Shown: piece by piece, positions 4,751-42,865 of the stretch
Layout of the letters: every line of letters starts with the position of its first letter
Numbering within the stretch: the first letter of the stretch is position 1
Assembly: GCA_013176395.1 (NCBI GenBank)
Contig: JABMLP010000008.1
Location: 248,001 to 312,000, forward strand
DNA length: 64,000 nucleotides
Source: Venturia oleaginea
Lineage: Eukaryota > Ascomycota > Dothideomycetes > Venturiales > Venturiaceae
Direction: 5' to 3'
Program-made: the position numbers and the translations under genes
Notes under the pieces: model-generated
Databases searched by the model: none
The model's input: only the letters and a program-made list of their open reading frames with translations
Told to the model about the DNA's origin: nothing

Positions 4751-5040
4751 GTAGACGGAAAGCGAAACATGAGGCATTGCCTCTCGGAATCTAGATAGCA
4801 CAGATGTACTGGTAGAATAACCGATATTTACAAGAGCCATTGGGCATTTGGAAATAGTGGTTGAGGGAAAAGAGGGGGGATCGAGGGGATAGCTGATCTT
4901 GTTTTGGTAAGCAGGGCGAAGTGGGACGTGGTAGATTATATCACGTGTCGGCTGTCTGATGAAGTCCCCCTAACCGGGCATGGCTGCGTGATTAAGCGGC
5001 TGCAACCGAGTAGGATAAAATCAATCAATCAATCAATCAA
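4735..5040 (+). repeat. LINE 3' end shared with three other elements in the window
   Basis: From about 4735 (around GAGACTGTAGGT) to the ATCA tail at 5040 this sequence is repeated with modest divergence in reverse orientation at 15157-15480 and 41461-41770. It is also repeated forward at 41280-41460, continued at 42721-42865. Upstream of about 4735 the LINE and the shorter elements no longer match. The shared block includes a CACGTGTCGGCTGTCTG stretch, then GCTGCGTGATTAAGCGGCTG just before the tail. This is probably the signal recognised by the LINE reverse transcriptase. Confidence 0.85.
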
Positions 5041-15142: not shown

Positions 15143-15156
15143 GAGCAAGGCTCCAG
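15143..15156. repeat. Target-site duplication, left copy (14 bp)
   Basis: GAGCAAGGCTCCAG, repeated exactly at 16760-16773. It brackets the element at 15157-16759 and shows that it was inserted as one unit by target-primed reverse transcription. Confidence 0.9.
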
Positions 15157-16759
15157 ATTGATTGATTGATTGATTTTATCCTACTCGGTTGCAGCCGCTT
15201 AATCACGCAGCTATGTCCGGTTAGGAGGACTTCATCAGACAGCCGACACGTGATAGATTATATAATCCACCGCGCCCCACTTCGCCCCGTTCACTGAAAC
15301 AAGACCAGCTGTCCCCTCCGTCCTCCCTCTTTTCCCTTAACCAGTATCTCCAAATGCCCGCTGGCTCTTGTAGATACTGGTTATTCTGCTAGTATATCTG
15401 TGCTATGTAGACTCAAGAGGCAATGCCTCGTGTTTCGCTATCCTTCTACCTACAGTCTCCCTCTAATGCTCAGCTTGTCTATCTGTTTCGCCTTATCCCT
15501 CAAGGCCAATGGGTTCCCTAAGTATGTTTCTGCTTGTGAAAGTTGCCTTGCACCAGATTCCTATGCGGCGGTGTATTTGGTTGTGTGATGCTGGAGACAA
15601 TAGTAACCATCGTAGTCGTGATTTCGCTGCTTGGGTGTGATACTCCGGGTATGCCCGTGGACGAGGCTGTCTGGTAGCTGCCGTATTGTATGGCGCCGAT
15701 CGTGCTATAGACCTGCCGTCTTATAGTCGGAGCCTATCTGCTGCTAGTCGCTCTCCCTACTTGCTATATCGCGCTCCTACTCTTGCCAATGCCATAACTG
15801 GGACGCAATAGTCTGGGGAGAGGCTCAAGGCTACGTCTGCTGGCTTGTAGGGAGGGGATTTGCCGCCAATAAGCTCCTTCTATACGTCCTTACTGCTTAC
15901 TGTGTTGCGCACCTACTCTTGCCAATGCCATAACTGGGACGCAACAGTTTGGGGAGAGGCTCAAGGCTCTGGACATCAGCTTGCAGCAGGACGGTTTGCG
16001 GAGACGATAGTAGATGAGGTTCTCTAGCAGCTGCCGTATCGTGTCGCACCGATTGTGTTGTAGACCTGTCGTCTTATAGTCGGAGCCTATCTGCTGCTAG
16101 TCGCTCTCCCTGCTTGCTATATCGCGCACCTACTCTTGCCAATGCCATAACTGGGACGCAACAGTCTGGGGAGAGGCTCAAGGCTACGTCTGCTAGCTTA
16201 CAGGGAGGGGATTTGCCGCCAATAGGCTCCTTCTATGCGTCCTTACTACTTACTGTGTCGCGCACCTACTCTTGCCAATGCCATAACTGGGAGGCAACAG
16301 TTTGGGGAGAGGCTCAAGGCTCTGGGCAACAGCTTGTAGCAGGACGGTTTGCCAAGACGTTGGGAGAGGTTGTCTAGTCGTTGCAGTGGTGTGTGGTGCC
16401 GATTGTTGCGCACCGGGCGTCTGGTGTTTGAGTTGTGTTGAAGGTATTGCCGTTCTAGCAGTGACTCGTCGACTCGGAGCGTTGCAGTGTCATCTGGGGT
16501 GATGGACTAGCCGGGAGATAGTGACTAGATGGTTGCTGTTGTCTTTGGTGGACGCATCGTTCGTGTAGCTTGCTCATGTATTCGTCTGCTTGCTCTGCCG
16601 TGGCCGCGACGGCGACTCTAGAGATATCTCATCGACGCTGAGGGACGCGCGATGGCCTCTAGAGGCCGGAGCGGCCACTGGCAGAGGTGTTTTGATGATC
16701 CTTAGATGATACTTCTGTAAATTCCAAAAATTGAGTTCTCGCTGTGTGTGCTGTTTCTC
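15157..16759 (-). mobile_element. Non-autonomous LINE-dependent element, full-length copy (1603 bp)
   Basis: The element lies on the reverse strand: its tail (ATCA repeats) is at 15157 and its 5' end at 16759. It is flanked by a perfect 14-bp duplication. The 3' ~300 bp matches the 3' end of the LINE at 1-5040. The remaining ~1.3 kb does not match that LINE's ORF2. The 5' end begins with an A-rich start and then CAGCACACACAGCGAG, identical in position to the inner copy at 42712, so both are probably full length. Near the 5' end a short frame (RIIKTPLPVAAPASRGHR) is shared by both copies and could be a relic of a LINE ORF1. No transposition protein is encoded, so mobility would have to come in trans from a LINE with the same 3' end. 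It sits in the upstream region of the F-box pseudogene. Confidence 0.85.
15771..16476 (-). repeat. Internal tandem duplication, two ~353-bp units
   Basis: Units begin at GCGCTCCTACTCTTGCC (15771) and GCGCACCTACTCTTGCC (16124). Each contains two related sub-blocks sharing CCATAACTGGGACGCAACAG. The inner element at 41461-42712 has a single unit, which accounts for the 351-bp length difference between the two copies. Confidence 0.8.
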
Positions 16760-16773
16760 GAGCAAGGCTCCAG
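16760..16773. repeat. Target-site duplication, right copy (14 bp)
   Basis: Exact copy of 15143-15156, directly beyond the 5' end of the reverse-strand element. Confidence 0.9.
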
Positions 16774-17179
16774 GTAGGAGATGTGAAGTAGAAAAGACCC
16801 ACGCATAAAACACGTGAGATCGACAAGATCGACAATCTATTTATAGGGGTGCCTCCTCTCCTCCAACCTCAACACAATCATCAATAATTCAATATCAACA
16901 TCACATTGGTATGCGTTGATTAGCAAAGCTAAACGCTTGATCTGGTCATCTGGTCCCCAATATTCACCTTTCAGCCAGATGGTAAATGCACACCTCGAAG
17001 TAATGTGCCCCCCATCAAGATTGTGTACCCAAGTCTCTCATAATCATCCAAAGACTTGCTAGCATCTAAACTTGCGCTAAGGGCGCAACCGATTTTATGA
17101 ACCCACTGTGCAAGCAATATCGATACAAATGCGCCTAGCCATAACCCAGAAATCGCCAATTGCTACAAACCACGCCCCA
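16774..17179. other. Intergenic; former upstream region of the F-box gene
   Basis: A TATA-like CTATTTATAGGG at about 16839 is followed by a CT- and CA-rich stretch typical of fungal leaders on the forward strand. I cannot find a convincing gene that starts there. Confidence 0.4.
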
Positions 17180-17205
17180 TCAAAACGTCTTATCGTCCAT
17201 CGATA

Positions 17206-17268
<63 letters not shown>

Positions 17269-19165
17269 CATCCTCGTCAGCTCCCTCACTATTATCATCC
17301 GCATGACCGAACACGACTTCCTCACCCTTCGTCACTTGCTGTTCCGCCTCCTCATTTCTGTACTTCATCTTCCGCGCCATGCTCTTCTCCCGTTCCACAG
17401 AACTCTCCCTCCGTCTAATCATTTCGAACACCTTAAGGTAATGCCTGAAATGGTTTAAAACACGCAAATCCGAATCCCCCAAATGTCTATCCTTGGGCTG
17501 GATCAGACCTTGAACTTCCAGATACCTCATGTACTTAGTCAGCTCCGACTTTGCAAAAGTCTCGTCACATCTCTTCATGGGACAGCGGTACTCCGTCCAT
17601 CCGTCCTTCTCAAAGTGCTCCGCGAGGTGGCGTTTGAATTTCGTGTAGCTTTCTGTCGCAAATCCGCAGTGTGGGCAACAGCATTCGTATTTCGGGTGAA
17701 TGGTGAGACGTTTCGTATTCTCTGTCACGCTATCACTTCGTTCTTCTGCTCGTCCTCTTGTACTTTCTTCTCTCCGTCCAGGAGAGCGTATCGGTCGCTT
17801 CGCAAACGTGGGTCCGGGACTGTTGGAACTGCCATTTGAATCGGGTTCATCAAACGAGGCCGAGTGATCCGCATCACTGCCATTTGAAAGCTTGCCCCGC
17901 CCGCTTCCATTTATGGGGGTGAATTGTGACCCTAGCGCTGGAGATGATGGCCGCGCCAATCCACGATTTGTGAGTTGACTGAAAGGTGAATCTGATGGTG
18001 AAGGATTTCCAAGCACCAAGACTAGTCGCCGTGAATCAGGTTTAGGAGATGACACCGGCTGATTTTCGTCATCTTCTAAGCTCATCTTCATTGCTCGCTT
18101 TAGATCCGCTTCGTATGAATCATCCTCTGAGTCAGATTCAACAGACGGAACCGGCTGATTCTCATCATCCTCCAAGCTCATCTCCATTGCTCTCTTCAGA
18201 TCCGCATCGTACGAATCATACTCTGGATCGGATTTAATAGACGGAACGGGTTGATTCTCATCATTGAGACCTGGAAGCCCAGCGATGACACCATCTAAGT
18301 CCGAACTCAGAGTCAGAGGTGGCGTATCAAATACTTGTCCTCTCGTTTTCTTCCGTTTCTGCATCACTGTCATTAGATCTTTTTCATCGAGGGAAAAGAC
18401 GGGCGCCTTCAAGGTCTTGGGCACCTCGTGGACGTAGTCATATAGCCGTCCGAAACTACGCGGCGACAAATTCAATCCCATCGCTGCCGCGTCTTGCTTG
18501 GATAGCAGCATTTCTTTTCCGAAATGAAAGAAACCGGTAGGAAAATTCGTGAACTGCTGTTGTGTCGCTGTCAAGTTGCCATGTCGAGGTTGAAGCGATG
18601 GAGGAGCGTGCGATTGCATGTCCCTGCTTCCGTTTACGTTACCATTTGTGAGACTGGCATGTCCAGGTTGAGAAGATGCGTCCCCGCGCGGCAATACGAA
18701 TTCGATTTTTCCCTCACTGTTGATAACGGCATAAGTACCGGTTATGATATTCGGCGTTGAGAACAACGGAGTTCCCGGTGGAAGGGAAAATCCCGGTATA
18801 AAAGAAGCTCTTCGTCTTGTTTTTGAAGCAGGCACTGGCAGTTTCTGCGTGTTTCTTGCTGGGGACATACTGTCTCTCGCCTCTGGAGCTGGAGCTGATT
18901 CTCTTGCACAGCGCTTTGTGTCAACGATCCCATTCGTTTCTGGAGCTGGAGCTGACTTCTTTCCACGGCGATCCATGTCAACGTGATCGTCTTCGGTGTC
19001 GCTCCTCGTCTTTGACATGCTCCTGGCGCTTGGCTTGGCTATCTTCCTAAAACCCAATTCGGGGCGATCCGGCATATCGACGTCCTCATTTCCGGTCTCG
19101 GAACCAGGACAAGGTCTTTTGTTGGCTTTCTCGGCGCTTTCTGGAGTTTTGGGTAGGATATGCAT
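17180..19165 (-). CDS. Tandem-UIM, C2H2 zinc-finger protein with poly-Asp tail (661 aa, intronless)
   Basis: Not a named protein I recognise. Visible parts in order: a Ser/Pro-rich N-terminus with two APAPE repeats (residues 70-100). Two ubiquitin-interacting motifs at about 320-336 and 351-367 share the core ADLKRAMxMSLEDDE, each in a ~31-residue repeat that also carries ENQPVxS. Then comes a low-complexity basic region, and one canonical C2H2 finger at 497-517 (CPHCGFATESYTKFKRHLAEH). A second finger-like block (YRCPMKRCDETF) lacks the histidines. A 20-residue aspartate run follows near the C-terminus. UIMs bind ubiquitin through the conserved Ala and Ser, both present in each copy here. 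The combination suggests a nuclear protein that reads ubiquitin on chromatin or on a DNA-bound factor, but this is inference. The start is the first ATG of the frame. Confidence 0.75.
17206..17266. repeat. (ATC)n microsatellite coding for the poly-Asp run
   Basis: About 20 uninterrupted ATC triplets, read on the reverse strand as GAT (Asp) codons. Because one codon dominates, the tract is prone to length change between strains without a frameshift. Confidence 0.95.
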
Positions 19166-23184: not shown

Positions 23185-24574
23185 CTACACCTTATCCACG
23201 ATGCCTGGCACTGATAGCGCCCCTACTATGGGCTGAGCCTTCGTTTCCATCGTGCCTAGGTGTTCGTTCAAGGCACGGAATCCGTCTTCCGCTGCCTTCA
23301 AGTCTGCCTCCAGGTCGTACCACCAAATCAACGGTAGGCGTCTGTTGGCGTCGTCGGTAATCTTTTGAAGATCCGCGCCAAACTTGGGGTGCTTCAAGAA
23401 ATAGATTCCTCCCACATCCTTGCTCTCGCGAACGACAGACTGCGCTCTGGGACGGCGGATAGAATCGTACATACAAAGTGCATTCTCCACTTGATCACTG
23501 TTTTTGACAAGTCCCAGCAGCCTTGACAAGATCAGTGCATCTTCTAGACCTTGTCCTGCTCCGGCTGCTTGGCTTGGACTTGAAGCATGGGCATTGTCTC
23601 CCAAAAGGCATATTCGTCCGTTGTAGTATGTGGGAGTATCTGGATGGTGGAACAGGGGCCATCTGGCTGGCTTCACGTACTGCTCTTGCGTTAGGTCATG
23701 GACAGCCGTTGCTTATTATGCCACTCACGTTTAGTAATTTGATAAGCCTGGAGTCGAACTCCGCAAATTCAGACAGCATCTCTCCTCTAGTCACTTCCCT
23801 GACAACCTGCTCACCAACCCATGGATTTGGGTCTTGGATGAACGCGACGATGTTCAGTTCTGATCCGCCTGTAATGGGGTATTGCGCCCAACCTTTCCCC
23901 TCCCGCATGAACCATTTGGCGTCTGTTGCATACTCGCCGATGATTTCCTTCGCTTCCTCCATGGGCGCAATTCCACGGTAGACGTAGGTATTGCAGTACT
24001 TCGACGCGACCTCTTCCGGATATCTCGAGCCCAGGACAGTCTTCCTCGTCATCCCCTTGATGCCATCGCAGCCAATGACCACGTCGAACTTGTACGTCGT
24101 TCCGTCGTAGAATCCCAGCGAGACCTTGCCGGCACCCTGGTCTATCCTTGACACTCGCTTGTTGAATTGAACTGTGCCCTCCGGAATCAGGCTCTCCATC
24201 ACCTCCAGCAATGCTTTTCGGTGCGCACTACTCCTGGTGAACTTTGGATGGGAGACACTTCCTCCGTGCCAGCCGGACTTCATTCCTAATCCCTCTTCAG
24301 CTCCCAAGATCTCGAACTGCTCATGGACCCTTGCCGGAGAGGTGTTCCCTACTTTGATCTCGTCGTACATCTTTGCGAACTTCTCGTCCATGAGTTCCAT
24401 AGCTCTCAACGCGTTTGGTCCGAGACCGATTCCTGCTCCGACGGGATCGAACTTGGGTGCGCTTTCGAAGACGGTGCAGTGAACGTTCTGCTTGGCGAGT
24501 CCAATAGCGAGGGCAAGACCACCAATACCGGCGCCGACGAGAGCAATCGAAATCGGTGGATCGATGGAAGCCAT
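23185..24574 (-). CDS. FAD-dependent monooxygenase, salicylate hydroxylase-like (2 exons, 446 aa)
   Basis: Class A flavoprotein hydroxylase that would use NAD(P)H and O2 to hydroxylate an aromatic ring, possibly with decarboxylation. Exons 24574-23729 and 23679-23185 are separated by a 49-nt intron in phase 0. Motifs: GAGIGG dinucleotide fold at residues 14-19, the conserved DG motif in VIGCDGIKG (about 172-180), and the second FAD motif GDNAHASSPSQAAGAG from residue 309. Length is normal for the salicylate 1-monooxygenase / 6-hydroxynicotinate 3-monooxygenase group, which cannot be split by motif alone. It is divergent from the Dabb gene across a 423-bp promoter that holds one copy of the cluster's CGG-N10-CCG site, so the two are likely induced together. 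Probably cytosolic, with no membrane segment. Confidence 0.9.
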
Positions 24575-24796
24575 AACTGTCAGATTGAGGAAGTTGAGGG
24601 CTCTGAGCTAGCACTCAAAGGAGCCACACAACTGTCGAACTCAACGTTCATAAGTCATGGAGAACTCTGTAGTCGGCACTACTGGTAAGCCTCGCCTGAT
24701 GGTGCTACTGCTTCTTCGGTAGGGTGAGGTGCCGCTCACAGTGAATTACGCGCGAGCCGTTCCGTAATACCAGATTTTCGGAACACTGTCTTAGGT

Positions 24797-24812
24797 CGGG
24801 TACATGCATCCG
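24797..24812. promoter_or_regulatory. Candidate Zn2Cys6 operator, site 1 (CGG-N10-CCG)
   Basis: Reads CGGGTACATGCATCCG on the forward strand and CGGATGCATGTACCCG on the reverse. It lies 223 bp from the monooxygenase ATG and 186 bp from the Dabb ATG, inside their shared promoter. It matches the consensus CGG-RTGCA-N5-CCG shared with sites at 27430, 31657 and 34710. Confidence 0.65.
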
Positions 24813-24997
24813 AAACGGAAGTCTGGTTGGACTGACTTTTGAGGTCCAGATTGTTTCGGCACAACGTTCCTGATCTGGAAAGTCACGAGAAGAAGCTTTA
24901 GGTTCTTGAATCGTAACTTGGCACTCGACTGTGCTTTTGAAGTGGGAGTGTTTCCGAAATTTCTTCACTCTCGGCCCTTTATTCAATCACTATAACC

Positions 24998-25777
24998 ATG
25001 TCCACTCAAATCGTCCGCGTCACGATGATTAAAATAGCCTCTGCGGAGCACCAAACAATAGCATTGCAGGGATTCTCAACCTTCACCAAGACCCAGGAAA
25101 AGGTGAGCCAGCCTCGTCTCAATTTGGAAGCTCACAGCCTTGGCCTTGCTACGCACGTTCATCCCTCAGCACATCACATCATAGCACATAAAACTTCGGA
25201 ACATCTTTTCTTCGTAGTCTCCTCCTGACTGTAGGATTGCTTTGCACCAAGTCATGAAAATGTCGGTCCGTCATGGAGCAGGCTGCCCTTGAATCATGGC
25301 AATTCGACAAAACTTTCGCGGCATCGTTCACCGGTCTAAAAGAAATTTCCGTCATACATAGGAGGTATCAACTCATATTCGCTCACCATCCCGATCTGTT
25401 GTCATTCCCTTCCCTCCCCGTGCTTTCCACCGTACATTTTATTCACCTGATCCTACCGTCCTCACCCCCGCACTCATCTATTTTCCTTCCAATCCCACCC
25501 ATTCACTCACCTATTGAGTTCCTCACCTCCCACTAACAACCCCCAGAACGGAAAACCATACATCCTCTCCCTAGAAGCCGGCTACGCCAAAGGCCATGTC
25601 CTAGACCAAGGCTACACCATCGTCACCAAATCTGTCTTTGCAAACGCACAAGATATGGAGTATTACGTGAATGAATGCCCGGGGCATATGGCGTACAAGG
25701 CTTTTTTGAAGGAGAATGCGCCGGTGGAAGGACTGATAAGTGTGTTTTTTACGCCGGAGGTTAGTTGTGTGATTTGA
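24998..25777 (+). CDS. Dabb-domain (stress-responsive alpha/beta barrel) protein (2 exons, 111 aa)
   Basis: Small dimeric alpha/beta-barrel protein. Exons 24998-25102 (MSTQIVRVTMIKI...TQEK) and 25547-25777 (NGKPYILSLEAGYAKG...) join in phase 0 across a 444-nt intron, much longer than its neighbours' introns. The order fits the family: an N-terminal beta strand, a helix, NGKPYILSLEAG, a GYTIVTKSVFANAQDMEYY block and a terminal ISVFFTPE strand. Dabb proteins range from stress-induced proteins with no known reaction to cyclases such as olivetolic acid cyclase. A role in handling an unstable intermediate of the neighbouring monooxygenase is inference. It is divergently transcribed from that gene and shares operator site 1. 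The long intron could hide a small exon; the joined product is complete without one. Confidence 0.75.
25103..25546 (+). other. Unusually long intron of the Dabb gene (444 nt)
   Basis: The donor GTGAGC and the acceptor CCCCCAG are both good. The second half is a long pyrimidine-rich tract. No in-frame exon is needed between the two coding parts. Confidence 0.6.
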
Positions 25778-26147
25778 GGGAGGCTGAGGGGAGAAGGCTG
25801 AGAGGTGGGTGGGGGAAGTGGATTCTGGAATGTAGTTTGCTCTTCGAAGAGAAAGAAGTCTTGTAGGCTTTTATGGCCGGATCTGTAATTGTATCCAAGG
25901 CGTGAATTCGAGTGTTGTTGTATTATTATTGATAGTACCACACAGTTCCAAGAAATCGTACTCAAGTTAACATCGATGAAGACGAAAATTTTCCAGCATT
26001 AATCCCTGATTTCAACATGGTGTACTGCCGTGGTCGCAATACCCAGAAGACCTGAGACAAAACTTAATGGATGATGGGAAAAGGGAAAGAATCACAGCAA
26101 CAAAGGCAGGAAGAGACAGATTATTCAAGAAGGATTCGCATCGCAAT
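25778..26147. other. Convergent intergenic region
   Basis: Lies between the 3' ends of the Dabb gene (forward) and the isomerase-like gene (reverse). Nothing else seen. Confidence 0.5.
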
Positions 26148-27021
26148 TCAATACTTCTCAAACAAACTCCCCCATCCCCCAAACTGATCCATAATCCCAT
26201 TAGTCCTATAAGCATGCCACACAGTCGCCTATCCCCCTCACCATTAGCATAAACCTCCCCACAAGAGAAAGGAAGTCAGAACCCACAGTATTAATAGCAA
26301 CAACCGGTTTCCCCAACTCAACCTCCAACTCGGCACAAGCCTTCGCAGCACAAAGATTCGTCCCCGCCTGGATCAACAATTCCACCCCTCCACCATCAAC
26401 CCTCCTAAAAGCATCCTTAATCTCTTCCCCCGTCACATCAGCAATACTCGTCGCAGTCGCACATTTCATCCCATATATCGCCACAACTTCACACCCAATC
26501 TGCTCGAAAAACTTGACAACCTCTTCATCACCTACAGGTTGGTAGGGGGTAACAATCCCAATTCTCTTAGCTTTGTAGGTTTCCATGACTTTCCCGCATG
26601 CCGCGGCACCGGTTGTAACGTCCAGGCCACCGGAGAGGTCTTTGATATATTTTACAAAGTCGGCTGCGCCGTCTTTGCCGCCCCAGAAGGTTTCGGCCGA
26701 CATGCCCATGACGAAGTAGTCTACTTTTGCGTGGAGACAGGATTCGACTGCGCGTTGCATTTCATTTCGTAGGTCGGAGAGAAAGGCGACCATGGCTTCC
26801 GAGGTAGAGAGGTCGGGGTTCTTGATCCAGATGCGGCCGCTGTGCCATGATACCCCTTTTGGCTTTGTTAGCTTTTAGTTTGGAATGAGGGTTAGAGGAT
26901 CGATATTGTAAGGGCTGGTTGTACCTGGGACGAGCATGCGGTTGAACTCGGCTTCGACACTTGTGTTTGTTGACGGTAAGATGAGGCCAAATTGGGCGCG
27001 GTTTGCTAGTTGTCCAACCAT
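26148..27021 (-). CDS. Maleate cis-trans isomerase / arylmalonate decarboxylase-like protein (3 exons, 248 aa)
   Basis: Member of the Asp/Glu racemase superfamily; the family interconverts or decarboxylates small dicarboxylates. Exons 27021-26925, 26855-26287 and 26228-26148 (introns 69 and 58 nt) give a continuous frame. Visible blocks: RAQFGLILPSTNT near the N-terminus, YFVMGMSAETFWGG (79-92), RIGIVTPYQP (130-139), LLIQAGTNLCAAKA (192-205) and INTATVWHAYRTNGI (220-234), the last typical of maleate-isomerase relatives. In biochemically known members one cysteine sits in the first loop and one just before the Thr of the second. Here those places are Met/Ser (MGMS) and Gly (AGTN), although Cys201 is close. 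The reaction is therefore uncertain. The promoter carries operator site 2, 409 bp upstream, so the gene probably belongs with the neighbouring catabolic genes. Confidence 0.8.
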
Positions 27022-27752
27022 ATTGCTTTGATCGCTATTCGAAGTCTCTTAAGGTCGAGGTGTAATGTTTGTCGATGTCCAATGGTGAAGAAACTGGTGT
27101 ATGAGCATCAAGCTCTCCCAAAATCCAGCCTCCAAACCAGCCCACCAAACTCGCATCGCGACCAGCATGCGGAAGACGCGACGCCGACGCGACTCTCACC
27201 CTCCGTTATCGCCTTGCACATGGCAAAGAGTTCTAAACATGGAACTGCCGTCGCAAGCAAGCACCCGACATGGACGATTCAGCTGCAAAATTCGGGGAAA
27301 AGCATTATTCAGTTATGCATGATCACTTGCGACAGTGCATGAGTCTCTGCATGAGTGAGTGAGACGCGTAGCTGCACACGCGGTCGTTGTGCCGCCGGTA
27401 CTCGTATCTTTGTCGACGGTTCCATATTGCGGGTGCATTCACCCGCAGGGCATTCGGTGGCGAATCTCCAGCCGTGCATCCAGCCGGACACCCGATCAGA
27501 TTGTCGGAATCGCCGCGGAAGTCGAGAATACTTCAAAGCGTCAGGTGCTCATCGATCGGATCTGCCAGTCGAAGGAAGTTTGGAGCCATATTGCAATTAC
27601 ATATGGCGGGGGTGGTTCGATGGCCTTACGGTAGGGTTTGCGACAAGGGAAACAGAAAGACACGATATATAAAGACGAAACTCAGCAAAGCGAGTGGGTT
27701 TGAAACGAATATTATCTTAGCTTTCGTCAAGCTCATGAAAGCTCCTTGGACA
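27022..27752. other. Promoter of the isomerase-like gene and 3' flank of the regulator
   Basis: Contains operator site 2 at 27430-27445. No gene was recognised among the short overlapping forward frames. Confidence 0.5.
27430..27445. promoter_or_regulatory. Candidate Zn2Cys6 operator, site 2 (CGG-N10-CCG)
   Basis: CGGGTGCATTCACCCG, embedded in a perfect 7+7 inverted repeat with a 4-bp centre (GCGGGTG-CATT-CACCCGC, 27429-27446). It is 409 bp upstream of the isomerase-like ATG. Confidence 0.65.
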
Positions 27753-30134
27753 TTATTGTTGCGAAAACACATCTCCCCTCAGCAATGCTCCTATATCGTC
27801 CCAGCCCCAATCCTGCATCTGCCCATTGGGATCGTGCATGAAACTCAACTGAGCCCAGAATTGATTGGCACTGTCTCTCGCAAGATACGAGTTCTCCGGC
27901 GACACAGCAGCACTCATCGTGAGTTCCTGTCCTGGAGGTGGGAAAACTTCCCTTTCCGGATCTGGGGCAAGATCCGGAACCGGCGGCAACTCATCCGTCG
28001 GCAAATGGTATGATGGCGCAGGCGTTTGTTCGCTGGGTAGTCCATTCACTCGTTGACTTTGGACGGAGACGGTTCTGAATTGCTCGGTCAAGGCATTCAC
28101 ATCCACCACGATTTTACCCCATTTCTCCAGCGAGCCGGGCATTCTTGGACTCTTGAGATGTTTCTGCATTATGATTGCGAGATCGTAGAGGAGGACGTCC
28201 GAAGGCTTTGCATCAATAGGCGAATTCTGTTTGACGCTGCAGAAGACGTCGAGGACCAGGACCAACGCTGAAGTGACGGTGTAGAAACAGTCGAACCACG
28301 TCCGTGAGTTAAACTTATTGATCGTTTCTAGTTTGTAGAGAATCCGACCGAGTCCACGCCCTGCATCGATGCACGTCTCGGACACTGTAACCATCGGCGG
28401 CGGCAGAACCTCATTGGGATTTTTGCTAAGTAGTGTCGCACGTCGAAGAAGAGCGGATTTAGAAACCAGAACGATGGTGTAATAGTACTGAGCATGTAGC
28501 AAGAGAAGGGGTCGCTGACTGGAAGGCGCAAGGGAATCTGCAATACCCAAGCTGAGATGCGGAGGGAGAGACTCTTTCCAGCGAGTGAGATCTCTGAGAA
28601 TGCCAGCGGTAGGCGTTAGCGGCCGACTATAAGAGTCATCCCCTGAGGCAGTTCCAGTGGGATCGAGAGCTTTGCAAGCCGACCCCAAGAGCAAAGCCAA
28701 TCGTTGCGACCACTTTAGCAGATCCTGAGGACAATGCCCTGCGACACCGACGATTCGTTCATTCGGATATGCAACAGTGCTCGATGTGTTCATGATGGCA
28801 CTGGGCCGATCGTAAGAGGATACTTGTATCTGCTCAAAAGCATAAAGCGTCCACCACAGCTGTTTCCTCAGCTCTCGAACTAGAGGACTCTGGCTGTGTT
28901 TGACATCATCCCGGTGAAGACCGATGGCAAATCCAATCCGCACAGCTGTACCGGTTAAGTTCCAGCAAGCATCTCGATGCGAAGTATTGTGTAGGTGCAA
29001 AGCTGTGAGCATCAGAGCTTGAACAGCATACATGTTCGATGTGAAGAAGACTGTGGGCAAGAGTTCTTGAGCATGTCGCCACCATTGTTTTTCGGCAGCT
29101 TCTGGAATATCGAACGGTGCTATCCGACGGGCCAGAATGAGGACGCACAGCAGACCGCAGAACCACGCAGGATCTGGCGCAGCAGTAGAGGCCACCCACC
29201 GTTCGTAGCTCTCTCGGAAAGAAGCTTCGTGTAGTACAGGAAAGTCTGAGTGTATGACGTCGAAATATGAGTCGATGAGCGCATCTAAGACAGGTCCATC
29301 AATTTCCTTGACTGATTCCGAGGGTGAGGCAGAATCAGCTGGACTCGGGTGTGAAGGATCCTGAATAGATTTGAACTCGCTCTTGTCGAATAGAGCTGGT
29401 ACTGCCTGAGAAGCATCGTAGCGATCCGCGGCATTGCGACCAAACATGGCAAACTCAAAGGACGAGTAGTTGCCCATCAATCTCCGTAACGTCAAATGGA
29501 ATTGGAACGAGCTGGCTGGGCCAATATATTGAACCTGTCCTTGCTGATCCGGAAGTAGAGGCAGAGTGTTTTCGTCCTCGACTTTTGACACAATCTTGTC
29601 TCGGTCCGTCCGATGAACTTCTTCCACCACAGGGAGCGGTATACCCAGACTCTTTCCCAGTTGCAGCATTTCTGTATTGCTAGACAAGTCTGCTTCGGGA
29701 AGCAATCCTTTAACCAGTGATTCCAACAGAGCCAGCCTGCTTCCAACCCCCTCGACGCTCTCGTAGATACGCATCTTGCGCGGCTGAGTCGTCGTACATT
29801 TTATGTTGTGTATCTCGCAGTATCGGCATTGATCTTGGCCAAGCAATCTATCACATTTCTGCTTCCTGCTCTTGCACTTGTCACAACTCGTCTCTGTCCT
29901 CTTCCTCTTCTCCAACGGCACTCTTCGATTGTTCCTGATCATGGTGAGATTGCTCGGCCGAGAAGTGTAGGGCAAGTCTTTGGCGATGGGGGAGAAATCA
30001 GTCTTGACACGGACAGAATTGGTTAAGGAGGAAGTCGACTGAGGTATGTTGGAAAGTATCTCTTGGTGATCAATGACATCTGATGACTGGGCATGGTTAC
30101 GAGGTCCCTTCGAGCATCTCCAAATAGTTGCCAA
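27753..30134 (-). CDS. Zn2Cys6 transcription factor, candidate regulator of the 23-36 kb cluster (793 aa)
   Basis: Single-exon regulator. The zinc cluster at about residues 84-113 reads CDKCKSRKQKC, DRLLGQDQ, then CRYCEIHNIKC (CX2CX6CX8CX2CX6C). A basic linker and a leucine-rich helix follow (VGSRLALLESLVKGLLPE), suited to dimer formation. The central fungal-specific regulator domain spans about 290-560, with YFDVIHSDFPVLHEASF, then RIGFAIGLHRDD as the conserved middle signature. The C-terminus is Pro-rich and acidic. The frame opens at 30134; another ATG at 29942 (residue 65) begins 19 residues before the cluster and is an equally good start. It is the only regulator inside the group of enzyme and transporter genes whose promoters share an inverted CGG site, and dimeric Zn2Cys6 proteins bind such sites. 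That it binds these sites is inference. Confidence 0.88.
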   Translation of the reverse strand: MATIWRCSKGPRNHAQSSDVIDHQEILSNIPQSTSSLTNSVRVKTDFSPIAKDLPYTSRPSNLTMIRNNRRVPLEKRKRTETSCDKCKSRKQKCDRLLGQDQCRYCEIHNIKCTTTQPRKMRIYESVEGVGSRLALLESLVKGLLPEADLSSNTEMLQLGKSLGIPLPVVEEVHRTDRDKIVSKVEDENTLPLLPDQQGQVQYIGPASSFQFHLTLRRLMGNYSSFEFAMFGRNAADRYDASQAVPALFDKSEFKSIQDPSHPSPADSASPSESVKEIDGPVLDALIDSYFDVIHSDFPVLHEASFRESYERWVASTAAPDPAWFCGLLCVLILARRIAPFDIPEAAEKQWWRHAQELLPTVFFTSNMYAVQALMLTALHLHNTSHRDACWNLTGTAVRIGFAIGLHRDDVKHSQSPLVRELRKQLWWTLYAFEQIQVSSYDRPSAIMNTSSTVAYPNERIVGVAGHCPQDLLKWSQRLALLLGSACKALDPTGTASGDDSYSRPLTPTAGILRDLTRWKESLPPHLSLGIADSLAPSSQRPLLLLHAQYYYTIVLVSKSALLRRATLLSKNPNEVLPPPMVTVSETCIDAGRGLGRILYKLETINKFNSRTWFDCFYTVTSALVLVLDVFCSVKQNSPIDAKPSDVLLYDLAIIMQKHLKSPRMPGSLEKWGKIVVDVNALTEQFRTVSVQSQRVNGLPSEQTPAPSYHLPTDELPPVPDLAPDPEREVFPPPGQELTMSAAVSPENSYLARDSANQFWAQLSFMHDPNGQMQDWGWDDIGALLRGDVFSQQ

Positions 30135-32026
30135 CTCTCACACAAAGGCGGCAAAGTGGAGGTGGAGACGAGACGCACCAAAGAGACGGACGTGCGCGCA
30201 GTCTTGCAGGGAGACGTGATAAGGTGCCCGGTTTCTTCAACGGGGAGTTCCGAGAACCATTGCCCTGGGAACACGATCGGTACGCTGGTACTTGTCACAG
30301 CAATTGACTGGGATATTCGTGTCAGCATTTGGAGAGCGAAGTTGAGGTACAAAGTGCTGCGAGTAATGTATCATACAGAAGCGAAGAGGACGAGTCAAGC
30401 CCGACTAGCACTTAGCACGCAACAGAGAGCGCGACCTTAATCAGTCATCAAGTAGGAGAGGTACCTACTCGAGTATGTATATCCAACTTGTGCTCTCTGA
30501 TCATCTTCTCTGCCGCCATCTCCCCAACCGTATATGCCGTCGACTCTCGGCCGAGTCAATCCATGGGAAAGATAAACCCACTTTGGCACGCTGAGATCAA
30601 AACCACTCGAAGACCGTCCATCTCAAACACTCCGAACTCCGAGTTTACACACGCAGAGTGGAATTCTTTCCTATTCGAACCGTGCTGCTCATGTGCCAGG
30701 GTTTGGCGAGCTTCCTCTCGATATTCCTATCGTACTGCCATGAAGGTTGGGGATCAATCAATCTTAACGCTTTGGAAATACCCCATGTCTTGTCAGTGGG
30801 CCCCAAGCCTCGCAATTGCCGGTTGCGCGTAGACCGGAGCTGCAAGCAGACGCATTGAATGGCGAGCTGTTTCGATGATAACGCGACGATCAAAGGCGTA
30901 CGTACTGTGTACTATGGTACTATGTGAGGAACCTGGGATCGATCAAGGGAGCCGCCGAGGGATCGCTAGATTGAATAGTGACAGTACCACGGCTTTGGGG
31001 ATTTATTACCAGGGATATCGCTCCGAGAAATGAAACACCTGGCTCGGCGGTATACTATGACAAGAAATCGGGTGGTGTAAGGCTGGAAGTGGTATCTCAT
31101 GATGTAGATTCTGCATCCGGCCTAAACGTCGTTTGGCATTTTGCCAGTTGAAGCTCTGGTCGACTACTAGATGCTTGAGATGTGATTTTATAATTCCAGT
31201 TCAATGGAGGGTTGGGGCTACTCGAGTAAATGCCAGATCAAATCGCTCGTCTGCGGAGAGATGCTCGGTGGTCTGTTCTGGCAGGAGTACTAAGTACTGT
31301 CAGTTTCGCTGGGGAGCGTGCGAGTCGAGACGCCACAACAGATCCCGAAGGCCCGGCTGAGGGATGGTTAGCCTTGTCCTCTTTCCTCTTCCAAGGTGAA
31401 CGAACCTCCAACAAAGATGAAATCGCAATTTTATATCACGTGTTATAGAATAACCCTGTGCAGGTCAAATTTCAATCCTGGGGAATAAGAATTTCAAAAT
31501 GAACAACGACTTTCTTCCCCACGAGTATGGCAGATTCGCCGCGAAAAAAGAATGATGGATGCACCAAATCCCATGCCACGCTTCGACCATGTCCTCGGCC
31601 TTCTATCCGCATGTCAATCTATGTCCAATCTGGTATTCTTACCGCTGTCTATGCGTCGGGTGCAAGTAACCGGCGGTCACAATCTTGGTGCCAACCGGAC
31701 GAGGACCAAAATTGATGCGCGTCGAGAGTCGGGACCACACGTCGATGGACCAATCTTGACGACACTGCTTCTGCCTCAGCCTTTCTGGATCTCTTATCGT
31801 GTGAACCGTTCGCCAAGCGAGGTGTTCACCCTAATCTAGGCTTTTGGACTAAGAAACGTCATCCTATGAGGATTCTAAACCAAGTATCAGCCTTGTGGAA
31901 CGTTGGGAATCGAGTATAGATTGCTCCTCTTCCTTTGGCTCTTGGAAAGGTAATGTTTCCATAAATTCGGCGATTATAACTCACGCGACATCTCCATCGG
32001 AGTGTGGAGTATCATATCGTTTTACG
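30135..32026. promoter_or_regulatory. Long divergent region between the regulator and the permease (1.9 kb)
   Basis: No gene recognised; frames are short. It holds operator site 3 (31657-31672), an isolated half-site CGGATGCA (reverse strand, 31112-31119) and a degenerate copy TGGATGCACC near 31554. The size is large for this window and suggests a complex promoter or an unrecognised non-coding transcript. Confidence 0.45.
31657..31672. promoter_or_regulatory. Candidate Zn2Cys6 operator, site 3 (CGG-N10-CCG)
   Basis: CGGGTGCAAGTAACCG, 355 bp upstream of the permease ATG. It shares CGGGTGCA exactly with site 2. Confidence 0.65.
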
Positions 32027-33934
32027 ATGACCGTCTCCAGCTTCATGCAGAAGCTTGAGGTCAAGCCTACGGAAGATGAATTTGAGTCTATCCAGACAAG
32101 TCGATGGGGCAATAGAGATGTCTATCCTATTCCTCATGACAAGAGAACCTATGGAATCTATGCGTTCGTAAGTTACTGGGGTGAGTGAGGTCCAGTCCTT
32201 GGATGTGGTCCCGAGGGTCATGTTTTGATGATTTCAACCAGGAACATGTGGTATTTGCCTTTCATCGTGGACCATTGGTAGCAGTCTTATTGGCATTGGG
32301 CTCACGCCTGGTCAAGCAATGGCATCCGTGGTAAGCAGAAGCGTGACAAACTCCATAGAACTGAGACTGAGTATTCTAGGTTGTTGGCATGTTCCTGGCT
32401 TGTATCAATGCCTTTCTCAACGGTACTCCTGGAGCCAAACACCATTTGGGGTATGGCATGCTTGCCCGAGCGGCTTTTGGCATGTGGGGGTCGTACTTCT
32501 GCATCATGCTGAATGTCTTCCAGTCGTTTGTGTTTTATGGGTATGGTCTAAATTCTCTCGTGTCCAAATGATGGGCTGATGTGAACCAGAACGCAGATGT
32601 ACTTTGGAGGTCAATCATTCGTGATCATCCTCAATTCACTCTCTCATTCATTCTTAACGATGAGTAATACTTTGCCCGAATCTGCAGGTATCACCACTCC
32701 AGGCCTCATCGGCTTTATCTTGTTCATCATCCTGTATTTCCCCATCATTTACTGGATTCCAGCCCACAAGATCCAGAAACTTCTTGAGGTACAAGTTGTC
32801 ATAGCAGCTGCAACGCTCCTAGGAATCATGGTATATCTAACTTGAGCCGCTTAGAGGGCCGCAAGCTGATATAAATCTAGGGATGGGCCGTCCATATGAA
32901 TGGTGGACACGCAGGAAATCTTGTCGCCCCAGCCATATCCCTCACAAAAGCTGAAGCCGGTTTTCGCATGATACAAGGCATCACCAGCGTAGCAGGAACC
33001 TACACAGGAGGCTCCGACCGTGTCTCTGGTAACAACACCTCCATTATTCTTTCATCCCTCTTGACTGACAACCAAATCAGATTGGACGCGCTACGGCCGC
33101 ACTCGCCATACCTCAACCCCAGCCATCTTCTGTCTCTTCATAACTGTCATCCTCACCGCCCTCATTGGTATAATCTCAACCTCAGCCCTCGTAAATGTCT
33201 ACGGCGAACTCCAATGGAACCCGCTAATCACACTCCAACTCGTCCAAGCAACAACATACACCGCCAAATGCCGCGCCGCCACCTTCTTCGCCGGTCTAGG
33301 TCTCCTCTGCGTCACCGTGTTTGTGAATTACACCCAAAACTGCGTTTCCTCCGGAATGGATGTTGCCATGTTAATCCCCAAATATATATCCCAACGACGC
33401 GGCGCAATTATCTTTTCAATACTCGGTGTACTAGCTCAACCATGGAGGTTTCTAACGCAAGCCACAACATTCATCACGGTACTTAGTTCATTCGGCGTAT
33501 TCATGGCCCCCGCCGCCGCCATCCTCATCGTCGATTTCTGGATCATCCGAAAGACGAGATGGAATATCCCTCAATTGTATAAACCAGGTGGGATATATTG
33601 GTTCACAGGCGGTATAAATTGGCGCGCCTTTGTCGCTTATTTCCTTGCCATGTGGCCTGCTTTACCTGGGTTTGTGAATGCGACGGGAGGGGTGGAAGTA
33701 GATATTGTGTGGAAGAGATTCTATCAGATTTCCTTTTTCTTCGGATATCTTGTTGCTGGTGGGTTGTACTGGATCTTCTGTATTGTTAGTCCGCCGCCTG
33801 GTGTTGGGATACAAATTAATTTTGACGTTGATGGGAGGGCGCTTGTTGTTGATGGAGTGGGGAGTTGTGAAGTTTCTGTGGATAATGGGGTGGTGGAGAA
33901 GCGGGATAATAGTGTTGAGACTACGGCTTATTGA
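32027..33934 (+). CDS. NCS1-family nucleobase/heterocycle permease (6 exons, 548 aa)
   Basis: Plasma-membrane symporter of the nucleobase-cation-symport-1 family, Fur-like branch (uracil, allantoin, uridine, thiamine and similar heterocycles). Exons 32027-32180, 32242-32330, 32380-32540, 32590-32830, 32881-33028, 33081-33934 keep a single frame. The N-terminus carries LEVKPTEDE and the ESIQTSRWGNRDVYPIP block that precedes helix 1. Then come YWGTCGICLSSWTIGSSL, IGIGLTPGQA and NGTPGAKHHLGYGMLARAAFG, the classic signatures of fungal Fur transporters, and DFWIIRKTRWNIPQLY in the second half. About twelve hydrophobic segments are visible. Substrate cannot be read from sequence. It is divergent from the cluster regulator, and operator site 3 lies upstream, so it probably imports the cluster's substrate. 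Confidence 0.9.
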
Positions 33935-34908
33935 TTTTAGTGGAAGAAATTTTCGTCGCCCAGTCTCTTAATTGGGGTAATCTGTATTTTGTGGTTTTCT
34001 TCTAATTCGGTCCGATCAGGCTGAAGTCTCTTCTAGTGTTAGGATCAATCATTATTCGAGCCAGCCACTGCTTACACAAGGTGACACATCCAAATGTGTT
34101 TTCTTCAGACCTGAAAACGGGATGTATGGGACAGCTTGGATATTTAGCGACCAAGAATGAACACGACTCCGCTGCCCCCTTTCCGTTATCGTATCACGAT
34201 CAGGCATAATACCTACAACTCCTCTCATGCGCCCTATCTCCCTAAACCTGGTCCCAAACAACCCCCCAACACCCCGCTAAACAAACCCATTAAAACTCGA
34301 ACTTAGACCTAGAGCAAGTAATATGATCACACCCGTCATTCTTCTCAACATTGTATAGACAACGTTTTCCCGGACATCTATTCGTCGTACTCTGTACCAC
34401 GTCCCTAATCGCCTGTTCCTAGGCTGCGCAATCTCTTGACTGTTTGTCAGAGGTGTGGTACTAGTATTCTTTGTATGTTTCGTCGGAGTGCTAGGTAACT
34501 TCGTGGATGATGCAAAGTTATGGTTGCATGTGTTATATGTGTAGACGGTATCACGGGTGGTTCCACGTCCTCCAGGGCAACGTAGAGGAGCTAACAGAAG
34601 ACGATGCTTAGACCTTGAAAGCAGCGTCGGAGTCTCTGAAAGTGCGATTGTGGTGAGATGGTTGTTGGAGGTGAGTGTCCGTGAGAGGCGGCCGAAGACC
34701 AACTGCCGACGGCAGTATGCATCCGTAAAATGAGGGGCAAGGCCCTGAACGGTGGTGGGAGAGTACAATGATGCTATCAAGGATCACAAACACGGCTCGC
34801 CGTGAACCTGAGCTTGTCGAACTACCATGCTGTATATCATTGTTCCAAGATGGCTTTCTCAAGCATAATCCCTTCTACAAGTCTCAAGCTTGAATATTCA
34901 TTGCAAAT
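33935..34908. other. Intergenic; promoter of the aldehyde dehydrogenase
   Basis: Holds operator site 4. A reverse frame (34277-34780) with a hydrophobic end is open but resembles nothing and overlaps the promoter, so I left it out. Confidence 0.5.
34703..34725. promoter_or_regulatory. Candidate Zn2Cys6 operator, site 4, overlapping an everted CCG/CGG palindrome
   Basis: The 16-bp site is 34710-34725, CGGCAGTATGCATCCG (reverse strand CGGATGCATACTGCCG), 184 bp upstream of the dehydrogenase ATG. Its left CGG is also the right half of a perfect palindrome, CTGCCGACGGCAG at 34703-34715, so two binding geometries overlap here. Confidence 0.6.
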
Positions 34909-36513
34909 ATGACGGGGCCCCTTGAGACACAACTGCTCATCAACAACAAGGTATTGCCCTATACAAGTTGACGACGAGCCTGTCACTAATCATTTTTAGA
35001 ATGTTCCCGCTTCTACGAACGAGACGTTTGATCTGTTCTCGCCTCATTCAGGGGAGCTTGTAGCAAAAGGTATACACCTTATTGGCCTCTAGCTAGAAGT
35101 ACTCCATGCTCACATCCTCCCAGTCGCAGAAGCGTCCGAGAACGACGTAAATACAGCCGTGGCAGCCGCCGAAGCTGCTTTCCCAGCATGGAGTGCTCTA
35201 TCGCCTACAGAACGAGGCGTGCCCCTCAAGAAGATGGCGGAAAAAATACTAGCCTCAAGGGATGAACTAGCCTCTCTCGATGCCATATCAATGGGTCGAC
35301 CGGTGGATGGCTATTTCGACGCCAATTACGCTGGTGTACATTTCAATTACTTCGGAGAAGCGGCATATGCGCAAGGAAACACCAGTTTGAATACTCCTGG
35401 GTTCCTAAACATGAGCTTGAGACAGCCGTTTGGTGTGGTGGCTATCATAATCCCATGGAACGCACCACTAGTCTTCTTCAGCAAGAAAGTTGCGCCAGCG
35501 GTAGCAGCTGGAAACACGGTCGTGTTGAAGAGTAGTGAGAAGGCACCTTTGACAGTATGTTGATCTCTCTTGCTTTCATGACCAAAATTGACCACAAGCA
35601 GTCATGGAAAGTCTCTCAATGGATCGAAGAATGCGGTTTTCCCCCAGGCGTCATCAACGTCCTCTCCGGCCACGGCCAAACATCCGGCAACGCCCTCTCA
35701 ATGCACATGCGCGTCCGCGCCATCTCCTTCACAGGAAGCGCCCGCACCGGCCGCGCCATCCAAATCGCCTCTGCAAAATCGAACCTGAAAAAACTCGTCT
35801 TCGAACTCGGTGGCAAAGGCCCAGCTGTAATATTCGAAGATGCGGACATGGAAGAGGCAGCAAAGGGAACGGAATTCAGCATAAATTTTAACTCGGGACA
35901 AACCTGCATGGCAAACAGTCGCATCTACGTCCAAGAATCGGCAAGAGAGAAATTCGTCGCGGCATTTATGAAATTGGCGAATGCCAGGAAATTCGGCAAT
36001 CCGACGGCAAAGGGCGTAAATCATGGCCCGCAAGCAGACAAAGTACAATACCAGACGGTGGTAAAGTACATTGAAATCGGCAAGAAGAGTGGCGGTGAGT
36101 TGCTACTAGGAGGCAAGACAGACGATACCAAGCTAGGAAAAAACACAGTCCATCCCGTCATCTTCGCCGACCAACCCGAGGACTCACAAATGATGAAAGA
36201 GGAGGTTTTCGGACCTGTCGTTGTTATCAACACTTTCAAGACGGAAGAAGAGGTCATTGCCAAGGCAAACGATACAGAATATGGTCTCTACGCGTGTCTG
36301 TATACACAAAACCTTGAGCGCGCGCTACGCGTGAGTAAGAAGATGGAGAGCGGGATGGTTGGTGTGAATTGCTCAAGTCCCACTATGTGCTGGGATTTGC
36401 CGTTCGGTGGGTATAAACAGAGTGGAACAGGACGCGAGAGTTTGCTAGACAGCATGGATCACTTCATGGAGCATAAGAGTATATTCATCAAGGTGCCTGG
36501 CATCGGAGGTTAG
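34909..36513 (+). CDS. NAD(P)-dependent aldehyde dehydrogenase (4 exons, 484 aa)
   Basis: Oxidises an aldehyde to the acid; cytosolic, with no targeting sequence. Exons 34909-34950, 35000-35069, 35124-35554 and 35602-36513 (introns 49, 54 and 47 nt). Motifs: PWNAPLVFF with the cofactor-side Asn, KSSEKAPLT, the glycine-rich SFTGSARTGR, the active-site FELGGKGP (Glu about 249), the catalytic FNSGQTCMA (Cys about 283), and EVFGPVVVI near the C-terminus. Length is normal for the superfamily. The last intron's acceptor is taken at CAG (35599-35601), giving APLT-SWKV; an acceptor 3 nt upstream would add one Gln. The promoter carries operator site 4, which ties the gene to the monooxygenase-permease group as the likely aldehyde-oxidising step or a detoxifier of an aldehyde intermediate. 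Confidence 0.92.
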
Positions 36514-40958: not shown

Positions 40959-42865
40959 ATGGCAGTGGCAAGAGTAGGAGCGCGATATAGCAAGTAGGGA
41001 GAGCGACTAGCAGCAGGTGGGCCCCGACTATAAGACGGCAGGTCTATAGCACGATCGGTGCCATACAATACGGCAGCCACCAGATAGCCTCGTCTACGGG
41101 CATACCCGGAGTATCACACTCAAGCAGCGAAATCACGACTACGATGGTTACTAATGTCTCCAGCATCACACAACCAAGTACACTGCCGCATAGGAATCTG
41201 GTGCAAGGCAACAATCACAAGCGGAAACACATTTCGGGAACAGACAAGCCTTGAGGAATAAGGCAAAACAGACAGACAAAGCTGAGTACTGGAGGGAGAC
41301 TGTAGGTAAAAGGTTAGCGAAACACGAGGTATTGCCTCTTGGGATCTATATAGCACGGATATACCAGCAGAATAACCAGTAACGACAAGAGCCAGTGGGC
41401 ATTTGGAAATACTGGTTTAGGGAAAAGAGGGAGGACGGAAGGGACAGCTGGTCTTGTTTTGGTGATTGATTGATTGATTGTTTCCTACTCGGTTGCAGCC
41501 GCTTAATCACGCAGCTATATCCGGTCAGGAGGACTTCACCAGACAGCCGACACGTGAAAAATCATAAAATCTACCACGCCCCACTTTGCCTCGTTCACTA
41601 AAACAAGACCAGCTGTCCCTTCCGTCCTCCCTCTTTTCCCTAAACCAGTATTTCCAAATGCCCACTGGCTCTTGTCGTTACTGGTTATTCTGCTGGTATA
41701 TCCGTGCTATATAGATCCCAAGAGGCAATACCTCGTGTTTCGCTAACCTTTAACCTACAGTCTCCCTCCAGTACTCAGCTTCGTCTGTCTGTTTTGCCTT
41801 ATCCCTCAAGGCTTGTCTGTTCCCGAAATGTGTTTCCGCTTGTGATTGTTGCCTTGCACCAGATTCCTATGCGGCAGTGTACTTGGTTGTGTGATGCTGG
41901 AGATATTAGTAACCATCGTAGTCGTGATTTCGCTGCTTGAGTGTGATACTCCGGGTATGCCCGTAGACGAGGCTATCTGGTGGCTGCCGTATTGTATGGC
42001 ACCGATCGTGCTATAGACCTGCCGTCTTATAGTCGGGGCCCACCTGCTGCTAGTCGCTCTCCCTACTTGCTATATCGCGCTCCTACTCTTGCCAATGCCA
42101 TAACTGGGACGCAACAGTCTGGGGAGATGCTCAAGGCTACGTCTGCTAGCTTACAGGGAGGGGATTTGCCGCCAATAGGCTCCTTCTATGCGTCCTTACT
42201 ACTTACTGTGTCGCGCACCTACTCTTGCCAATGCCATAACTGGGAGGCAACAGTTTGGGGAGAGGCTCAAGGCTCTGGGCAACAGCTTGTAGCAGGACGG
42301 TTTGCCAAGACGTTGGGAGAGGTTGTCTAGTCGTTGCAGTGGTGTGTGGTGCCGATTGTTGCACACCGGGCGTCTGGTGTTTGAGTTGTGTTGAAGGTAT
42401 TGCTGTTCTAGCGGTGACTCGTCGACTCGGGGCGTTGCAGTGTCATCTGGGTTGATGGACTAGCCGGGAGATAGTGACTAGATGGTTGCTGTTGTCTTTG
42501 GTGGACGCATCGTTCGTGTAGCTTGCTCGTGTATTCGTGTGCTTGCTCTGCAGTGGCCGCGACGGCGACTCTAGAGGTACCTCCTTGATGCTGAGGGACG
42601 CGCGATGGCCTCGAGAGGCCGGAGCGGCCACTGGCAGAGGTGTTTTGATGATCTTTAGATGAACTTCTGTAAATTCCAAGAATTGAGTTCTCGCTGTGTG
42701 TGCTATTTTTTCCTTGTTTTAGTGAACGAGGCGAAGTGGGGCGTGGTAGATTTTATGATTTATCACGTGTCGGCTGTCTGGTGAAGTCCTCCTGACCGGA
42801 TATAGCTGCGTGATTAAGCGGCTGCAACCGAGTAGGATAAAATCAATCAATCAATTAATTAATCA
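40959..42865 (+). mobile_element. Outer non-autonomous LINE-like element, 5'-truncated, interrupted by a second copy
   Basis: Forward-strand member of the same family as 15157-16759. It begins inside the internal repeat unit (GGCAAGAGTAGGAGCGCG), so it is 5'-truncated. Its own sequence is 40959-41460 plus 42721-42865, ending in the ATCA-type tail at 42865. A perfect 12-bp duplication (ACCGTGTCTATA) brackets the whole stretch, proving that the inner element arrived inside it. No protein is encoded. Confidence 0.88.
41461..42712 (-). mobile_element. Inner non-autonomous LINE-like element, full length, inserted in opposite orientation
   Basis: Reverse-strand copy: the ATCA-type tail is at 41461 and the 5' end (A-rich, then AGCACACACAGCGAG) at 42712. 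It is 1252 bp long with one internal ~353-bp unit instead of two. It is flanked by CTTGTTTT (8 bp) at 41453-41460 and 42713-42720, and it interrupts the outer element exactly between these, within the 3' region shared with the LINE. The 78-codon frames at 41120-41356 and 41704-41940 are the same repeat read from opposite strands, not genes. Confidence 0.88.

Follow-up and report, generated by a model that had tools for sequence, protein, structure and literature searches.

The question raised by this locus is whether six neighbouring genes of the fungus Venturia oleaginea are activated together by a regulator encoded among them, and what purpose such a regulon would serve. The genes occupy positions 23185..36513 of a 64,000-nucleotide window of contig JABMLP010000008.1 and are referred to here as MO, DABB, ISO, ZN, PERM and ALDH. 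We consider it likely that they represent a conserved ascomycete catabolic cluster that is held under its own Zn2Cys6 regulator, ZN, by way of a shared operator. Two parts of this reading seem to us more secure than the whole: ZN very probably controls these genes through the sites described below, as judged from sequence, and the six genes very probably make up one catabolic pathway.

The region carries four exact copies of CGGRTGCAN5CCG, all located no more than 450 bp before a start codon. An earlier, sequence-only reading of the same DNA had reported these four sites with one in each of four promoter regions, and its motif, coordinates, strands and promoter assignments were all correct. 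Operator 1 (CGGATGCATGTACCCG, 24797..24812, reverse strand) lies in the promoter common to MO (ATG at 24574) and DABB (ATG at 24998), 223 bp before the former and 186 bp before the latter. Operator 2 (CGGGTGCATTCACCCG, 27430..27445, forward strand) is about 410 bp before ISO (ATG at 27021), operator 3 (CGGGTGCAAGTAACCG, 31657..31672, forward strand) about 355 bp before PERM (ATG at 32027), and operator 4 (CGGATGCATACTGCCG, 34710..34725, reverse strand) about 185 bp before ALDH (ATG at 34909). All four sites contain inverted CGG triplets separated by a 10-bp spacer and form imperfect CGG-N10-CCG palindromes, with complementary inner base pairs across the palindrome at 3, 4, 2 and 2 of five positions in sites 1 to 4, respectively. 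The five inner bases that had been called free are not wholly so because the site is an imperfect palindrome.

A second fungus, found under a misleading title, carries the same six genes. An ISO-alignment scan of bacterial and archaeal genomes gave 285 relatives, from which 80 loci were kept, and one of these (L029, contig NYXK01000009.1) is titled as a Deltaproteobacteria metagenome-assembled genome (MAG). In it, an apparent intron divides ISO into two pieces, MO, DABB, PERM and ZN are also encoded, and ALDH is found close to the contig's edge. We conclude that NYXK01000009.1 is a fungal contig, and since intron-bearing fungal genes sit in a MAG contig, fungal DNA seems to be included in the public bin. 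In a 20-kb segment of this contig (L125) the gene order is ALDH(-), PERM(+), ZN(+), ISO(+), DABB(-), MO(+), and its ISO is nearest to that of Mollisia among the named matches (82%, P0006). The promoter common to DABB and MO in L125 contains CGGCTGCAAGCAGCCG, about 198 bp upstream of DABB and 180 bp upstream of MO, which is an exact CGGNTGCAN5CCG site, of which there are only eight in the 7.3 Mb of the record. The chance of such a site in the 393-bp DABB/MO intergenic region is about 4e-4, a figure that is free of the circularity in how the motif was derived. Two more variants occur at other orthologous promoters of L125, and a motif fitted to both fungi, CGGNTRCAWGYA, matches exactly these three places in its 20 kb (shuffle mean, 0.07) and has no match in the next 20 kb. 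The sequence-only reading had staked its proposal in part on the sites recurring in syntenic clusters, and motif variants are indeed present in the six-gene cluster of this distant fungus.

In L125, the gene after MO (16550-18049) probably encodes a protein with a metallo-beta-lactamase fold, as judged by eye, and is preceded by CGGAAGCAAGTTGCCG, which differs from the operator by one mismatch. This gene was considered as a seventh member of the cluster and was dropped because its 66% relative in the V. oleaginea genome sits on another contig, where the sole CGG-N10-CCG in the 3.7-kb locus lacks the motif.

The association of ISO, ZN and MO extends well beyond these two fungi. Linkage was assessed with the best 120 matches each of ISO (of 4,625), ZN (of 314) and MO (of 3,287), with equally long longest contigs taken as the same contig. 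In this sample, 36 contigs were shared in total, with 18 joining ISO and ZN, 15 joining ISO and MO, 21 joining ZN and MO, and nine holding all three. Locus tags, where given, agree with this linkage: they adjoin in Helicocarpus griseus (AJ79_08633/08634/08635), Aspergillus nanangensis (FE257_006920/006921) and Blastomyces parvus (GX51_05854/05855), and are close in Capronia coronata (A1O1_02867/02869/02871). One gene model of Aaosphaeria arxii (P0205) even has both an Amdase and a Fungal_trans domain. The cluster occurs in at least three classes of Ascomycota, namely Dothideomycetes, Leotiomycetes and Eurotiomycetes; no further copies were found in viral contigs, and no description of such a cluster was found in the open-access literature (titles and abstract starts of the PMC open subset). 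Dimorphic fungi such as Blastomyces are among those in which ZN and MO orthologues appear among the matches listed (P0153, P0261 and others).

ZN itself (27753..29942, reverse strand) is read as an intronless gene for a 729-aa Zn2Cys6 regulator with a Fungal_trans domain. PF00172 is matched at 1e-05, above its cut-off, and the cysteines C20, C23, C30, C39, C42 and C49 of the Zn2Cys6 pattern (C-x2-C-x6-C-xn-C-x2-C-x6-C) are invariant in 12 aligned sequences. The DNA-binding core is invariant in the 12 aligned orthologues, including K27, which by eye aligns with the Gal4 lysine that contacts CGG. The protein had earlier been placed at 27753-30134; its identity was right, but its start is most likely the Met encoded at 29942, where the aligned orthologues begin, and 30134 is probably the limit of the open frame. 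A precedent for the proposed recognition is Put3, for which excerpts of PMC5729217 describe a CGG(N10)CCG site with contacts to spacer bases as well. The Put3 regulon resembles the present one in its Zn2Cys6 regulator and in inverted CGG triplets 10 bp apart; it differs in controlling other genes, those for proline utilisation, whereas the operator proposed here is a predicted one with a TRCA word within the spacer. By analogy, a ZN dimer would read the imperfect palindrome through its inverted triplets and preferred spacer bases, with CGGNTRCAWGYANCCG as the best form; operator 1 matches this form on both strands, and operator 3 also matches it. An inducer sensed by ZN would then activate MO and DABB, ISO, PERM and ALDH together. 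With the regulator lacking a proximal site, the proposed targets number five genes at four promoters rather than the six originally proposed, while the idea of a regulon gains from the conserved cluster and the rare shared operator. The earlier interpretation is supported in part, also by a linked Zn2Cys6 protein with an invariant DNA-binding core and by the presence of all six orthologues in L125.

Are the four sites anything more than a fortunate alignment? At face value they are highly unusual: 100 dinucleotide shuffles gave a mean of 0.07 sites and a largest count of 1, with none reaching four, and the naive Poisson chance of four sites in 9.9 kb is 2e-12. The whole genome (46,083,126 bases) has 16 exact CGGRTGCAN5CCG sites, one per 2.9 Mb, with 4 here and 12 elsewhere, so that the genome-wide scan suggested in the sequence-only reading did not find the sites scattered over many promoters. 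No paralogues were found by tblastn in the 3-kb loci around nine of those 12 (L001-L008, L026), in a search that reported five proteins, ISO matches not among them. There is no genome-wide excess of the motif, only one tight local group, because controls match about as often: the reversed pattern has 14 matches against 16, and the wider CGGNTGCAN5CCG matches 55 times by strand and its control 62 times. The earlier assertion that the sites are not due to chance needs caution because the motif was derived from the very same sites, and the estimate behind it ignored this after-the-fact choice. When dinucleotide shuffles of the 13.3-kb region could take any spacing from 4 to 20 and whichever inner columns were shared, 35 of 1,500 equalled or exceeded the observed four-site set. 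The count by itself is weakened by this result, and the case is borne by other evidence. The promoter placement of the sites is a separate matter: all four fall in the 2,223 of 13,329 bases that are promoter, an outcome with a random-placement probability of about 8e-4.

Several observations besides the shuffle result weigh against control of the cluster by ZN through these sites. No exact site occurs in the 450 bp before the start of ZN. In L125, CGGATGCAAGCAAGCG, which lies 207 bp before ISO, has GCG in the place of CCG, the spacer of CGGATACAAGTATACCG, about 200 bp before ALDH, is 11 bp long, and PERM has no site nearby, the roughly 3.2-kb ALDH-PERM intergenic region having one variant at its ALDH end. 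The expectation for CGGNTRCAWGYA is optimistic because it was derived from both fungi, and it fits window sites 1 and 3 but neither operator 2 nor operator 4. A weak site in the window, CGGGTGCTTGCTTGCG (27252..27267, reverse strand, three mismatches to CGGNTGCANGCANCCG on that strand), stands 231 bp before ISO, a distance similar to that of CGGATGCAAGCAAGCG in L125; this match is no more than suggestive. Taking the shuffle result, the lack of a genome-wide excess and the fit of only two of the four sites to CGGNTRCAWGYA at their strongest, the cluster would be real and the operator a chance set of matches chosen after the fact. We regard this as improbable, since it leaves unexplained why all four sites fall in promoters and why the orthologous promoters of L125 carry an exact CGGNTGCAN5CCG and two more variants. 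Marginally less improbable is that the sites are real operators but that a different CGG-binding regulator reads them, with ZN acting elsewhere. Paired CGG triplets are commonly read by Zn2Cys6 proteins, according to excerpts of PMC5559640, and for that reason the triplets alone do not name their reader; the lack of a site near the start of ZN fits this alternative as well. Against it stand the persistent linkage of ZN orthologues with ISO and MO in many ascomycetes and the restriction of the sites to the linked genes. Control by ZN through the four operators therefore remains the reading that we prefer.

Operator-like palindromes also occur in a dispersed repeat of about 187 bp, which contains CGGTTGCATGCAGCCG or CGGTTGCATACAGCCG and was seen in loci L004, L014-L017, L020, L021, L023, L027, L028 and L134 of the V. 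oleaginea genome, at about positions 1370-1560 (or 1458-1645) of these loci. The locus L004 is one of the 12 other exact CGGRTGCAN5CCG sites. In the genome, the CGGNTRCAWGYANCCG form occurs at five places, with nine strand matches in all (control, 0); these are sites 1 and 3 and the loci L027, L028 and L134, the last three of which are inside this one repeat. The palindrome within the repeat thus indicates that a mobile or dispersed element spreads operator-like sequences. No tRNA was found in six of the repeat loci, and two of them had no Rfam match. Other repeats, related to one another at 83-99% identity and partly inverted, lie on both sides of the cluster region, at window positions 4718-5038, 15156-16756 and 40959-42708.

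What the genes do is suggested by their products, for which spliced gene models were built and each of the six is supported by Pfam. MO (23185..24574, reverse strand; intron 23680-23728) encodes a salicylate-hydroxylase-like FAD monooxygenase of 446 aa. Its best solved chain is salicylate hydroxylase 6bz5 (5e-64), and its best NCBIfam equivalog family is Salicylate 1-monooxygenase, at 272.8 bits, below the cut-off of 446.35. DABB (24998..25777, forward strand; intron 25103-25546) is a 111-aa Dabb (dimeric alpha/beta barrel) protein. PERM (32027..33934, forward strand; five introns) is an NCS1-family permease of 548 aa that matches PF02133 over its full length (8.9e-75, profile positions 1-440 of 440) and falls below the TIGR00800 cut-off (305.5 versus 353.1). 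ALDH (34909..36513, forward strand; three introns) is an aldehyde dehydrogenase of 484 aa with a putative gamma-hydroxymuconic semialdehyde dehydrogenase, 4go3, as its best solved chain. Among the matches listed, MO is 91% identical to that of V. inaequalis and 87% to that of V. effusa, and ISO is 87% identical to that of V. nashicola (92% in the alignment), which agrees with an origin in or near Venturia.

ISO (26148..27021, reverse strand; introns 26856-26924 and 26229-26286) encodes a 248-aa protein with a Pfam Amdase domain and is the only close copy in the genome, where the one other match is at 23%. A model of its orthologue P0002 (pLDDT, a per-residue confidence score, 86.4) is closest to maleate isomerase 2xed, with a TM (template modelling) score of 0.85. 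Both cysteines of maleate isomerase have a catalytic role. In pairwise alignment, their positions in 2xed correspond to Met84 and Gly197 of ISO, residues that are invariant in 16 of 16 aligned relatives. ISO therefore shares the fold and the Amdase domain of the maleate cis-trans isomerase/arylmalonate decarboxylase family and differs from it at both cysteine positions; its score against the Arylmalonate decarboxylase NCBIfam equivalog is 53.4 bits, below the cut-off of 225. The earlier label of isomerase-like gene holds for the fold, but the absence of both catalytic cysteines makes isomerase activity doubtful. ISO has a maleate-isomerase fold and should not be named a maleate isomerase.

The bacterial relatives of ISO offer a hint of its partners. 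We considered neighbours within 4 kb of ISO in 79 of the 80 kept loci, those with bacterial titles and without L029; the counts are lower bounds because the crude open reading frame caller called nothing in three loci. Flavin monooxygenases occur near ISO in at least 17 loci, Dabb-cluster proteins in at least 13 (confirmed by Pfam in three of three tested) and isochorismatase-fold hydrolases in at least 18; a flavin monooxygenase and a Dabb protein occur together in at least nine, and all three kinds in at least seven. In L032, an aldehyde dehydrogenase is followed by a flavin monooxygenase and ISO. The hydrolase in L031 most resembles N-carbamoylsarcosine amidohydrolase, and the L031 monooxygenase is nearest to PnpA and HspB. 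At 1e-5, the bacterial loci yield no match to MO, and the fungal and bacterial monooxygenases are therefore analogous rather than close kin. HspB, maleamate amidase and maleate isomerase act in the lower part of the breakdown of nicotine and nicotinate by bacteria. Some bacterial ISO operons likewise join an HspB/PnpA-like monooxygenase, a maleate-isomerase-fold protein and an isochorismatase-fold hydrolase, and differ in their cysteine-free ISO and added Dabb protein. A second, larger conserved operon places a Rieske oxygenase cluster near ISO instead in 44 of the 79 loci (e.g., L049-L106, with one member tested). Relatives of ISO thus serve more than one pathway, and the Rieske-linked operon apparently represents another pathway that uses the same cysteine-free fold.

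The NCS1 permease and the amidase-type partners in bacteria point to an N-heteroaromatic substrate, for which we would put the chances at about even; vitamin B6 or thiamine would be a guess. In such a pathway, PERM would import the nitrogen heterocycle, MO would hydroxylate the ring, perhaps with decarboxylation, DABB and ISO would process the product, and ALDH would oxidise an aldehyde, either of the substrate or formed after ring opening. The naringenin (fde) pathway and OpaE were also considered as analogues. Nicotinate invites a closer comparison, as the cluster could be a variant of the nicotinate (hxn) regulon already known from fungi. Excerpts of PMC8478523 and PMC9304392 describe the hxn regulon of Aspergillus nidulans as having a pathway regulator, bidirectional promoters and a salicylate-hydroxylase-type monooxygenase, all likenesses to the present fungal catabolic cluster. 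Moreover, MO matches 6-hydroxynicotinate 3-monooxygenase (4e-32), and nicotinate catabolism is brought to mind by the maleate-isomerase fold and by the amidase-type partners in bacteria. Yet MO is closer to salicylate hydroxylase, and PMC5746545 and PMC8478523 assign to hxn a C2H2 regulator (HxnR), MFS transporters and a molybdenum hydroxylase (HxnS) as its first enzyme, all of which are missing among the six genes, where a Zn2Cys6 regulator, an NCS1 permease, a Dabb protein and ISO are found instead. Neither HxnR nor HxnS is among the six, the rest of the genome not having been searched for hxn, and we consider an identity with hxn very unlikely.

More speculatively, and with less confidence than we attach to the nature of the substrate, ascomycetes and some bacteria, chiefly actinobacteria, might share a hitherto undescribed aerobic pathway of N-heteroaromatic breakdown. 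The product of its flavin monooxygenase would be resolved jointly by a Dabb protein and a cysteine-free protein of the Asp/Glu racemase superfamily. ISO may be a candidate for transfer from bacteria to fungi, where it may then have been placed under a new Zn2Cys6 operator. ISO marks a cysteine-free branch within a well-studied enzyme superfamily, and in some bacteria such proteins stand beside the same kinds of partner; in ZN and its proposed sites the cluster offers a directly testable regulator-operator pair.

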